From Flavivirga amylovorans (GTDB taxonomy: Bacteria; Bacteroidota; Bacteroidia; Flavobacteriales; Flavobacteriaceae): a stretch of DNA of 64,000 nucleotides. The translations under genes and the position numbers were made by a program. Below, piece after piece: positions 36,660 to 39,570 of this stretch. The DNA lies in contig NZ_JAUOEM010000003.1 in assembly GCF_030540875.1 (NCBI RefSeq), positions 434,001 to 498,000 of the forward strand. Reading direction: 5' to 3'. Numbering within the stretch: position 1 is the stretch's first letter; every line of letters begins with the position of its first letter. A model generated the notes under the pieces. It was not told where the DNA came from and searched no databases. It saw nothing but the letters and a program-made list of their open reading frames with translations.

Positions 36660-37964
36660 TCATGAGATTCCTGCCTTCGTAGGAATAATATCTTTTAATC
36701 TAATTGAAACCGCATTTTTATGTGCTTGTAAACCTTCTGCTTCTGCCATTAATTCAATGGTTTCACCAATGTTTAACAAACCTTCTTTTGATATTTTTTG
36801 AAAGGTCATGCTCTTTAAAAAGCTATCTAAATTCACTCCAGAATAGGCTTTTGAAAATCCATTGGTGGGCAACGTATGATTTGTTCCAGAAGCATAGTCA
36901 CCTGCACTTTCTGGTGTATAATCCCCTATAAAAACAGAGCCTGCATTGGCTATTCCATTTACATAAAAATCTTCATTCTCAGTACAGATAATAAAGTGTT
37001 CTGGTCCGTATTCATTAATTAAATCAAGCGCTAATTCATTATTTTCTATATAGATTAGCTTAGAGTTAGCAATGGCTTTTTCTGCAATAGCTTGTCTTGG
37101 TAATTCCCTAATTTGTTTTTCAATTTCTTCTGAAACGGAGTTAATTAAATTTTTAGATGTAGAGACCAAAAGAACTTGGCTATCTGCTCCGTGTTCTGCT
37201 TGACTCAATAAATCTGAAGCTATATATGATGCATTAGCACTATTATCTGCAACTACCAATAATTCACTTGGCCCAGCAGGCATATCAATAGCCACTCCAA
37301 ATTTTGTAGCAAGTTGTTTTGCAACAGTAACAAATTGATTTCCTGGCCCGAAAATTTTATAAACCTTTGGAATAACTTCAGTTCCAAACGTTAACCCCGC
37401 AATAGCTTGTATTCCACCTACTGTAATAACTTTTGTAACGCCACAAAGTTGTGCAGCAAAGAGAATTTCTGGTGCTAACTTGCCTTCTTTATTTGGAGGC
37501 GAACATAATACAATCTCTTTACAACCTGCAATTTGAGCAGGAACAGCTAACATAAGGACGGTTGAAAATAAAGGAGCTGTACCCCCAGGAATATATAAGC
37601 CCACTTTTTCAATGGGACGTTTTTCTTGCCAGCATTGTACGCCATTGGTCGTTTCAATGTTTATTTTAGAAGTCTTTTGAGCTATATGAAATGTTTCAAT
37701 GTTTTTCTTGGCCTCTTTAATAGCATTTTGAAGTTTTTTAGGAACAATTAAAACCGCTTTTTTAATGTCTTCTTCGGTAACTATATTGGATTGTAAATCG
37801 ATTCCATCAAAACGTGTTGTATATTCTTTTATGGCTGTATCACCATTTTTAATAACATTATTAAAAACTTCACTTACAATACCTTCAATATCATCAACAG
37901 TCTGTGTTGGTCGTTTTAAAATTTGCGACCAGCTTTCTCTATTAGGATTATCTATAATTTGCAT
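36660..37964 (-). CDS. hisD: HisD: histidinol dehydrogenase
   Basis: The 434-residue enzyme oxidises histidinol to histidine. It has KVGLYIPGGTAPLFSTVLMLAVPA (about 105), PAGPSELLVVAD, the zinc-site region LLSQAEHGADSQ, EHFIICTEN and GDYASGTNHTLPT. I chose the ATG at 37964 (MQIIDNPNRESW) because the upstream in-frame ATG at 38030 would overlap hisG and adds non-homologous residues. Oddly, the last codons (TKAGIS-stop) are formed by a REP-like palindrome. Confidence 0.95.
   Translation of the reverse strand: MQIIDNPNRESWSQILKRPTQTVDDIEGIVSEVFNNVIKNGDTAIKEYTTRFDGIDLQSNIVTEEDIKKAVLIVPKKLQNAIKEAKKNIETFHIAQKTSKINIETTNGVQCWQEKRPIEKVGLYIPGGTAPLFSTVLMLAVPAQIAGCKEIVLCSPPNKEGKLAPEILFAAQLCGVTKVITVGGIQAIAGLTFGTEVIPKVYKIFGPGNQFVTVAKQLATKFGVAIDMPAGPSELLVVADNSANASYIASDLLSQAEHGADSQVLLVSTSKNLINSVSEEIEKQIRELPRQAIAEKAIANSKLIYIENNELALDLINEYGPEHFIICTENEDFYVNGIANAGSVFIGDYTPESAGDYASGTNHTLPTNGFSKAYSGVNLDSFLKSMTFQKISKEGLLNIGETIELMAEAEGLQAHKNAVSIRLKDIIPTKAGIS
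36667..36686. repeat. REP-like palindrome forming the hisD C-terminus
   Basis: ATTCCT (36667-36672) and AGGAAT (36681-36686) enclose GCCTTCGT. It belongs to the GAGATTCCTGCCTTCG...AGGAAT type that I recall from other flavobacterial genomes. It lies inside the 3' end of hisD and encodes part of the last five residues. Confidence 0.5.
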
Positions 37965-38003: not shown

Positions 38004-38860
38004 TAAAGAACCATTTTTTCTATAGGACAAACTAAAATGCCTTGAGCACCGTTGTTCTTTAATTCATCAATAACATCCCAAAATTCATTTTTGCTTATTA
38101 CTGAGTGAACAGAACTCCATCCTTCTTGAGCTAATGGTAAAACTGTTGGGCTTTTCATACCTGGCAATACATTTATAATATCTTGAATTTTTTCATTAGG
38201 AGCGTTAAGCAGAATGTACTTTGATTCACGTCCTTTTAATACGGACTGAATTCTAAACTGAATCTTGTCAAGAATAGCTTGTTTATCTTCACTAAGAACA
38301 GGTGAAACAGCTAGCACTGCTTCAGATTTCAAAATCATTTCTACCTCTTTTAAGTTGTTCTTAAATAAAGTGCTACCACTAGAAACAATATCACATATCG
38401 CATCGGCTAATCCAATATTTGGAGCAATCTCTACCGATCCATTAATAATGTGAAGGTTCGCTGAAATATTATTTTTTTCTAAATAGCTTTTAACAGTATT
38501 TGGATATGAAGTAGCTATACGTTTTCCTTCTAAATCCTGTATGCTTTTATAGTCTACAGACTTTGGTACTGCAATACAAACTCTACAGGTAGAAAATCCT
38601 AGTTTTTCAGCAACTCGAATGTCATTACCTTTTTCTATTAGAACATTTTCACCAATAATTGCTGCATCTACGACACCATCTTTAAGATATTGAGGAATGT
38701 CTCCATTTCTTAAGTAAAACACTTCTACAGGAAAGTTTCTGGCTGATGCTTTTAATTGATCTTTTCCGTTATCGATAGAAATACCGATATCTTTTAAAAT
38801 TTTCATCGAATCTTGGTTTAAACGACCCGACTTTTGTACTGCAATTCTTAATTTACTCAT
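38003..38860 (-). CDS. hisG: HisG: ATP phosphoribosyltransferase (long form)
   Basis: The 285-residue enzyme makes the first, committed step from ATP and PRPP. It has LRIAVQKSGRL at the start, DAAIIGENVL, RIATSYPNTVKSYLEK, GSVEIAPNIGLADAICDIVSSGSTL (PRPP-binding loop) and a C-terminal regulatory ACT-like domain (KYILLNAPNEKIQDIINVLPG). The length is that of the long, self-contained form that does not need HisZ and is feedback-inhibited by histidine. The ATG at 38860 fits the family start (MSKLRIAVQ). A leader peptide and attenuator lie upstream. Confidence 0.96.
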   Translation of the reverse strand: MSKLRIAVQKSGRLNQDSMKILKDIGISIDNGKDQLKASARNFPVEVFYLRNGDIPQYLKDGVVDAAIIGENVLIEKGNDIRVAEKLGFSTCRVCIAVPKSVDYKSIQDLEGKRIATSYPNTVKSYLEKNNISANLHIINGSVEIAPNIGLADAICDIVSSGSTLFKNNLKEVEMILKSEAVLAVSPVLSEDKQAILDKIQFRIQSVLKGRESKYILLNAPNEKIQDIINVLPGMKSPTVLPLAQEGWSSVHSVISKNEFWDVIDELKNNGAQGILVCPIEKMVL

Positions 38861-38909
38861 TTTGTTGTTTTTATGAGTTCGAAACAATCAATTTGGAATT
38901 AAAATTAAA

Positions 38910-38938
38910 AAACCCGCTTGATTGTCTCAAACGGGTTT
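38910..38938 (-). terminator. his attenuator terminator
   Basis: On the minus strand AAACCCG (38938-38932) pairs with CGGGTTT (38916-38910), and the loop can extend pairing. A T-rich run follows toward hisG. The 5' arm overlaps CGTTTGAGA (38933-38925), which can pair instead with TCTCAAGCG in leader codons 15-17 (38984-38976) in nine base pairs including one G-U. The two structures exclude each other. Confidence 0.75.
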
Positions 38939-38969
38939 AAAAAATATGTTGATTTTATTCAATACATCT

Positions 38970-39026
38970 TCAGTTCGCTTGAGAGCAAATATGAAAATGA
39001 TGATGATGTAATTGAATAAAGTTCAT
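38970..39026 (-). CDS. hisL: his leader peptide
   Basis: The minus-strand ATG at 39026 opens an 18-codon frame, MNFIQLHHHHFHICSQAN, ending with TGA at 38970. Five of six consecutive residues (7-12) are histidine. It lies upstream of hisG, followed by a terminator/antiterminator pair. By analogy with the his leaders of enteric bacteria, ribosomes starved of His-tRNA would stall at codons 7-12 and leave codons 15-17 free to form the antiterminator. With histidine present the ribosome would cover them and let the terminator form. The mechanism is inferred; the peptide and pairings are read directly. Confidence 0.8.
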   Translation of the reverse strand: MNFIQLHHHHFHICSQAN

Positions 39027-39186
39027 GACTTATTTTATTTATGCAATTTTATAATATATTTTTTTATTACACAAGTATTACATAACATAATTAAGAATCT
39101 CTTAATATTATAATATCTTAAATTGCTATAATATAATTGATCACACTTATTAATGTAAATACAATAAATACAATTTAGTCCTTATC

Positions 39187-39570
39187 CTATTTTTTCTTTT
39201 TATTGGTTGTTAATTCAAAATTAGTCGAATCTGACGTAGTTACCTTCCCTATTAATTTCCCTTTAATATTCTTTAAAGAAACATATATTGAATTTCCTTC
39301 AATATATAATTCAAAATGTAAAGTTCCATTCTTCAATCTAGTGTTGGTGGCTGTTAACTTTGTGTCATCAACAAACTTAACGGAAGTTATTATTTTATTT
39401 TCTTTTTTTATAATTTTAATTTCTCCTGTATAGTATGTATAATATGCATATTCTGCACCATGACATACATACTCCCAAGTTCCTAAAAAATCTTTTTCTG
39501 TGTTTTGTGCAGCTCCAGTAAAAGCTGCAGATAATGTTAAAATTAATGTTACGATAATTTTTTCTTTCAT
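39187..39570 (-). CDS. small exported lipocalin-like protein
   Basis: The 127-residue protein has a signal peptide (1-21, ending GAA-Q). A short beta-rich domain follows with DFLGTWEYVCHG (G-x-W opening of small lipocalin-like folds) and alternating strands (IKIIKKENKIITSVKFVDD, LHFELYIEG, IYVSLKNIKGKLIGKV). It is probably periplasmic. Role unknown. It stands alone on the minus strand between hisL and the GH5 gene. Confidence 0.6.
   Translation of the reverse strand: MKEKIIVTLILTLSAAFTGAAQNTEKDFLGTWEYVCHGAEYAYYTYYTGEIKIIKKENKIITSVKFVDDTKLTATNTRLKNGTLHFELYIEGNSIYVSLKNIKGKLIGKVTTSDSTNFELTTNKKKK

Follow-up and report, generated by a model that had tools for sequence, protein, structure and literature searches.

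The window analysed here is a stretch of 64,000 nucleotides from Flavivirga amylovorans (contig NZ_JAUOEM010000003.1, positions 434,001 to 498,000), and the features of the his region described below lie on its minus strand. Their order is leader frame (39026-38970), terminator (38938-38910), hisG (38860-38003) and hisD, after which comes a gene for an aminotransferase, occupying the position of hisC. The hisG gene encodes an ATP phosphoribosyltransferase with a HisG_C domain (Pfam HisG, 8e-51; HisG_C, 1e-28), and hisD, with a predicted start, occupies 36660-37964 (Pfam Histidinol_dh, 5.2e-165). The leader is an ATG frame of 18 codons plus TGA that encodes MNFIQLHHHHFHICSQAN and reads ATG AAC TTT ATT CAA TTA CAT CAT CAT CAT TTT CAT ATT TGC TCT CAA GCG AAC TGA. 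Its putative regulatory codons are codons 7-12 (CAT CAT CAT CAT TTT CAT, 38991-39008), which supply five His among six residues. An earlier note on this DNA had described both this His-rich frame before hisG and a stem with a T-run after it, and both are present as it said. The leader region is single-copy in its own genome, and its fold is unusually stable (z = -5.93; 0 of 200 shuffles as stable).

The stem is an intrinsic terminator, AAACCCGUUUGA-GACAA-UCAAGCGGGUUU, with 12 pairs, the loop GACAA and a T-run that continues to 38907. It is the sole terminator-like site on either strand within 38600-39300, where shuffled sequences predict 0.2. Leader codons 15-17, UCUCAAGCG (Ser-Gln-Ala, 38976-38984), form a candidate antiterminator strand whose partner is CGUUUGAGA (38925-38933); the two can form nine pairs, eight Watson-Crick and one G-U. 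The nine-position pairing claimed by the earlier note thus stands, except that the last two partner bases sit in the terminator loop, outside the arm to which that note had assigned them. The start of the leader can also fold with the stretch that follows its stop codon (UUUAUUCAAU/AUUGAAUAAA, 38950-39025), enclosing the hairpin UUUGCU-CUCA-AGCGAA, which involves codons 13-18; this fold binds only 2-5 of the nine antiterminator bases, and its role as a protector is plausible. Finally, a segment of the 5' arm and loop, GUUUGAGACAAUCA (38919-38932), is complementary to a downstream element that we call DN, UGAUUGUUUCGAAC (38877-38890), located 16 nt before the hisG ATG, and the two strands covary. 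This third, covarying partner beside the hisG start was absent from the earlier note, whose description of a two-state attenuator was not borne out, as at least four pairings compete.

Upstream of the leader lies a possible, weak -7 promoter box, TAAAATTG (39044-39051), which differs at one base from the consensus TAnnTTTG that PMC9723704 quotes. Exact boxes occur in 0 of the 80 loci of the close set described below, against 4.6 in shuffles, and in 40 of 128 other genomes, against 6.1. A sigma-70 scan found sites no more often than in shuffled sequences (6 vs 5.0).

Conservation was assessed in sets of increasing distance. The close set comprises the window and 79 named relatives from the best 80 of 554 confirmed, L025 having been dropped since its contig begins at hisG; its loci are mutually related and do not amount to 80 independent observations. 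Three of the four named loci whose HisG is 95-96% identical belong to Flavivirga. A further 140 genomes each encode a HisG with 38% identity or more. Of these, 104 represent the family, at roughly one per genus, and the remaining 36 come from the order, class and phylum, with one more family genome (G315) among them. The 104 were taken from 131 family matches after exclusion of the window's own match, G002 and the 24 next closest, together with G134.

An orthologous His-run ATG frame precedes hisG in 79 of the 80 named relatives, the sole miss being the locus at a contig edge without upstream DNA. The frame is 17-18 codons long in these relatives and occupies the same place, although a few end early or differ. 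Similarly, at 128 of the 140 further Bacteroidota loci the 500 nt before hisG contain a short frame in which three or more of seven residues are His. When the same criterion was applied to the last 300 nt before hisG with reverse-strand and shuffled controls, the frame was found in 80 of 80 close-set loci (reverse 0, shuffled 1.3), 98 of 104 family loci (2 and 2.5) and 30 of the set of 36 (1 and 1.6). By a single rule, the leader was recovered in 80/80 close, 99/105 family, 4/4 order, 14/14 class and 11/17 phylum loci; it is missing at 6 of the 105 family loci, one of which has only 119 nt upstream, and at 6 of the 35 wider loci. Among genomes with a related HisG, His-rich leaders therefore extend to members of the order and class and to some of the phylum.

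Beyond that range the leader disappears. The phylum search returned 138 matches, 56 of them with HisG only 26-34% identical, and among the 40 of these 56 that were examined (L229-L268) the last 300 nt held a His-rich frame at one locus on the forward strand, none on the reverse and 1.3 in shuffles, which is chance level; over the whole 700 nt, the counts were one forward and one reverse. A phylum-wide spread is ruled out by this result, so that the form which the earlier note placed in Bacteroidota is not common to the whole phylum. The initial impression of such a spread arose because none of the wider loci first compared had a HisG below 38% identity. On the sequences compared, the His leader goes with one HisG lineage, and in the distant-HisG genomes, 39 of 40 of which lack it, hisG regulation must be of another kind.

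One script found the terminator in 80/80 close, 99/105 family, 3/4 order, 7/14 class and 9/17 phylum loci. Pairing was evaluated on a MAFFT alignment (A1) of 53 of the 80 close loci, selected by a distance of at most 60 nt from terminator to hisG and not by outcome. None of the 53 sequences has a broken terminator pair (636 of 636 cells paired), and 10 cells are doubly changed against 1.6 in shuffles. At ten order, class or phylum loci (L187, L190, L191, L201, L204, L208, L210, L211, L215 and L217) a His-rich frame is present and the script found no terminator; these may be versions that act on translation or depend on Rho, or their hairpins may have been missed.

The antiterminator pairing holds in 93.1% of cells in the 53 sequences, compared with at most 50.3% when the strands are slid. 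Its covariation support is modest, with 10 doubly changed cells against 5.6 shuffled, confined to one pair, and bases 1 and 2 of the strand are unpaired in 20 and 12 of the 53 sequences, respectively. Positions 3-8 are paired in 151-153 of the 153 leaders with a Gln-Ala pair, with no more than two failures per pair, and the first base of codon 15 pairs loop base 2 in 64.1% of cases, against 42.7% for permuted partners (maximum 54.2%). Codon choice adds a further line of evidence. Of the 155 leaders with the Gln-Ala pair, 147 encode this alanine by GCG, a codon that is otherwise rare, accounting for 16 of 194 Ala codons in eight genes of the window. This bias argues for selection on the RNA and not only on the peptide, and for a nucleotide-level constraint on codons 15-17. 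The protector fold is paired in 88.4% of cells of the same alignment, with 29 doubly changed cells against 9.5 shuffled. RNAalifold, applied to the 53 rows, recovered the terminator and two short helices but neither the protector nor the DN helix, and so lends no support to those two. The earlier note had held that the absence of a His-run frame or of paired stems in close relatives would speak against it; this comparison favours it, as frame, terminator and antiterminator are conserved in the Flavobacteriaceae examined.

When the 80 upstream regions were listed, a strand mirroring the terminator 5' arm and loop was seen between terminator and hisG. In one group of genera the two strands read GUUUGAGACAAUC/GAUUGUUUCAAAC, in another GUUUGAGUAAAUC/GAUUUACUCAAAC and in L059 GUUUGAGCUAAU/AUUAGCUCAGGC, with further versions elsewhere. 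Compared with shuffled downstream regions, DN reached p<=0.01 at 114 of 197 loci, where about 2 would be expected (62/80 close, 49/99 family, 2/3 order, 0/6 class and 1/9 phylum); the other 83, including all six class-level loci, did not reach this threshold. On the 53-sequence alignment the helix is paired in 90.8% of cells against at most 50.5% when slid, and it carries 42 doubly changed cells against 11.8 shuffled, a count matched by 0 of 500 shuffles and lost when the alignment is slid by one column. The weakest measure is the number of pairs with two-sided change, four against 2.9 shuffled, with 38 of 500 shuffles as high.

Mapped onto a HisG tree, the 13 DN pairs show 17 two-sided changes that keep the pair, 31 one-sided changes that keep it and 28 that break it, counted over 66 of the 80 loci chosen by DN p<=0.05 and an anchor. 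Loop pairing in these 66 loci is 95.8% against 66.5% for permuted loops, values inflated by that selection. The test was therefore repeated in a register defined only by the arm, without the loop, on all 80 close loci and 86 others (166 of 197 usable). Own loops paired in 82.5% against 57.7% for permuted loops (maximum 65.6%) in the close loci, and in 66.9% against 55.3% (maximum 61.9%) in the others; the four loop positions in the 80 close loci underwent 14 two-sided changes and 49 breaks. Among the 143 loci with an arm score of at least 9, the 3' end of DN lies 14-17 nt before the hisG ATG in 80, and this preferred spacing suggests a link to initiation. Eight loci (L031, L035, L003, L012, L039, L050, L052 and L055) have extra sequence inserted between terminator and hisG start; several of these inserts contain a local hairpin, e.g., CCCGCTTTCTCGGG, and they are possibly mobile repeats.

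The genome of F. amylovorans contains analogous leaders before other amino-acid genes. A Trp-run leader, MNIILNNTWWWSFRNLRS (L223:688-744), precedes an ORF at 898, a chorismate-binding gene taken as trpE, and is accompanied by a terminator-like hairpin, GGCTTGTC/GACAAGCC, with a T-run; it is a probable trp attenuator. Similarly, the Ile/Val-rich leader MKKQILNIVSIIVIVIISQR (L225:1036-1098) before ilvD (1396) is probably a branched-chain attenuator, and the Phe/Tyr-rich leader MTTVYYTYFNNWFYFFFSKRDEALYV (L226:1292-1372) before the prephenate dehydratase gene (pheA) is probably a phe attenuator, each with a terminator-like hairpin; all three hairpins were identified by eye. PMC9723704 also lists a pheA element. 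The leader script gave no convincing leader at the two homoserine dehydrogenase loci of the same genome, and neither the trpE nor the ilvD leader showed a DN-like strand on inspection by eye. We counted the trpE, ilvD and pheA leaders as support for attenuation at hisG.

Taken with leader conservation, the terminator, antiterminator complementarity and the covarying DN pairing, all of which are sequence evidence, these observations make it highly probable that the region is a ribosome-mediated transcription attenuator of the his operon, and they support the earlier note in this reading, since a His-run frame, a terminator and a codon 15-17 antiterminator are conserved before hisG. From this arrangement we infer stalling, read-through and a role for DN as follows. 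With ample charged His-tRNA, the ribosome would reach the leader stop codon and cover codons 15-17, whereupon the terminator hairpin would form and RNA polymerase would halt before hisG. When His-tRNA is scarce, the ribosome would stall in the His run and open the protector fold, freeing codons 15-17 to pair with the terminator 5' arm, and transcription would go on. The close-set median energies are -16.5 kcal/mol for the terminator, -12.8 for the DN helix and -8.1 for the antiterminator; as the weakest helix, the antiterminator would therefore have to win by timing, being made first.

In read-through RNA, the same arm, together with the terminator loop, could pair with DN, which ends 16 nt before the hisG start. 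While the arm is held by codons 15-17 most of the loop would be free, so that DN could enter there and displace them; once the terminator has formed, the loop would be closed to DN. The DN helix would thus be a mark of read-through RNA. Since DN is made after the T-run, it cannot act on that termination event, and would therefore act on the translation, stability or structure of the read-through RNA. The reading we favour is that DN forms a post-termination layer near the hisG translation start. In its specific form, which we put forward tentatively and at somewhat below even confidence, DN takes the arm from codons 15-17, bars the terminator from re-forming and is itself kept off the hisG start, leaving the read-through RNA translatable. 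Just as tentatively, the whole could be a two-layer switch in which one arm has three rival partners and the choice made by the stalled ribosome is passed on to non-Shine-Dalgarno translation initiation. The trp leader of Bacillus subtilis, on which TRAP acts, is a precedent for a single leader that acts on termination and then on translation initiation; it differs in that its sensor is a protein and not a translating ribosome.

Two other roles for DN have to be weighed, each of them rather unlikely in our estimate. DN could be a device that turns translation off, its helix with the arm and loop covering the ribosome standby region of hisG and silencing leakage when histidine is plentiful. The 14-17 nt spacing seen at 80 of 143 loci places the end of DN beside the adenines at -12/-13 (PMC9976891), and this role needs no complementarity to the hisG start, which is absent in many lineages; however, the helix leaves positions -14 to -1 open, and the antiterminator of the starved cell (-8.1) would also lose to DN (-12.8), so that the wrong state would be silenced. 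Equally doubtful is a DN without any translational role, which would stabilise or process the 5' end of the read-through mRNA, or form a pseudoknot with the lower stem of the terminator. Such a role would fit the retention of the pairing in lineages with unrelated hisG starts, and the lower stem AAACCC/GGGUUU could, judging from a drawing, coexist with part of the DN helix, but the preferred spacing to the start codon points to initiation instead.

Explanations that dispense with attenuation altogether fare far worse. Control of hisG by another RNA sensor, a T-box or metabolite riboswitch beside which the leader frame would be incidental, has a precedent in the T-boxes that control his genes in Firmicutes (PMC9413887), but is very improbable given that no Rfam family reached its gathering threshold in the whole window and that the 15 weak matches at E<=10 within 38800-39120 include no T-box or riboswitch family, the T-box covariance model itself having no match at either level. 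It is just as improbable that the His run is a chance occurrence or an ordinary small gene and that the hairpin merely ends an upstream transcript, as the frame is conserved before hisG in nearly all relatives examined, with controls near zero, and codons 15-17 are constrained at the nucleotide level.

Other roles for the DN region were tried and rejected. The sequence ACUCAU (38874-38879) can pair with the hisG start AUGAGU (38860-38855), a weak candidate with 0 doubly changed cells on the 53-sequence alignment. At p<=0.05, a downstream region pairing with the hisG start was detected at 61 of 197 loci. Accessibility of the start was computed only for the 114 loci with DN p<=0.01, of which 86 have a hisG beginning with ATGAGTAAA and 28 do not: it was 0.456 with free DN against 0.557 with shuffled DN in the former, and 0.533 against 0.563 in the latter. 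When DN was blocked, accessibility of the start rose by more than 0.15 at 50 of the 86 loci, but at only 4 of the 28. With no covarying cell and hardly any effect outside the ATGAGTAAA lineages, occlusion of the start was rejected as a general role of DN, and a lineage-restricted occlusion is a possibility. We also set aside action of the terminated leader RNA in trans on DN, since each mRNA would have its own arm at a higher local concentration, and a reading of the arm and DN strands as a DNA operator, because the spacing between them varies with the inserts.

Comparison with known systems places the attenuator among classical leaders. Unlike in the enteric his leader, the antiterminator strand is here part of the final codons of the leader, and hisG is preceded by an additional strand that can pair. 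The enteric attenuator (RF00514) shares a short tandem-His leader, a terminator and a competing antiterminator (PMC9413887). The Rfam His_leader model RF00514 gave no match at the gathering threshold, nor any at E<=10, and the nearest amino-acid leader in Rfam was Trp_leader RF00513, with 20.2 bits against the 41 required. The earlier note had called the element independent or very diverged; the lack of any RF00514 match even at E 10 agrees with this, but falls short of establishing independence because short leaders keep little sequence.

According to PMC9413887, Proteobacteria and some Firmicutes possess His-leader attenuators; those of the Bacillus cereus group, Eubacteriales and Erysipelotrichales likewise combine three to five consecutive His codons with a terminator and an antiterminator, but belong to another phylum, and the sections of that paper on them mention no third partner. 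PMC2965389 describes leader-peptide systems, the ermC leader aside, as limited to Proteobacteria and Actinobacteria before its own Firmicutes case. For Bacteroidota, PMC7366714 describes leader-like small frames in Bacteroides thetaiotaomicron, with hisG and histidine absent from its main text, and PMC8305728, on his genes of the phylum, mentions attenuation, in the parts available, for S. enterica and E. coli. The closest report is the 2021 transcriptome of F. psychrophilum (PMC9723704), which describes a structured 5' element of hisG that has no Rfam hits and also occurs in further genera of the Flavobacteriaceae, and sees "strong clues" that leader peptides control amino-acid operons by attenuation. 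That element concerns the same gene in the same family and is very probably the same as the leader described here; the passages of that report on the element give no peptide, alignment or pairing scheme, part of which its supplement (Table S7) may hold. In the literature searched, we found neither a peptide alignment nor a third strand described, although a 2010 survey by Lopatovskaya and others may cover part of this. The attenuator itself is therefore of a known kind and its hisG element has already been reported (PMC9723704); it is the third strand that sets this variant apart.

Our alignment could seed an RNA family that, according to PMC9723704, is missing from Rfam. In PMC9976891, initiation in Bacteroidia is reported to use adenines at -12/-13 and low structure, and the ribosomes of this group are reported to fail to use Shine-Dalgarno pairing. 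The comparison, which spans 80 close relatives and roughly a hundred more genera of the family, provides aligned evidence for classical attenuation, which would imply that translation is coupled to transcription in a group that does without Shine-Dalgarno pairing. The covarying third strand, in turn, offers a mutable target for asking whether an attenuator that senses the ribosome can also set the translation of the first gene of its operon.
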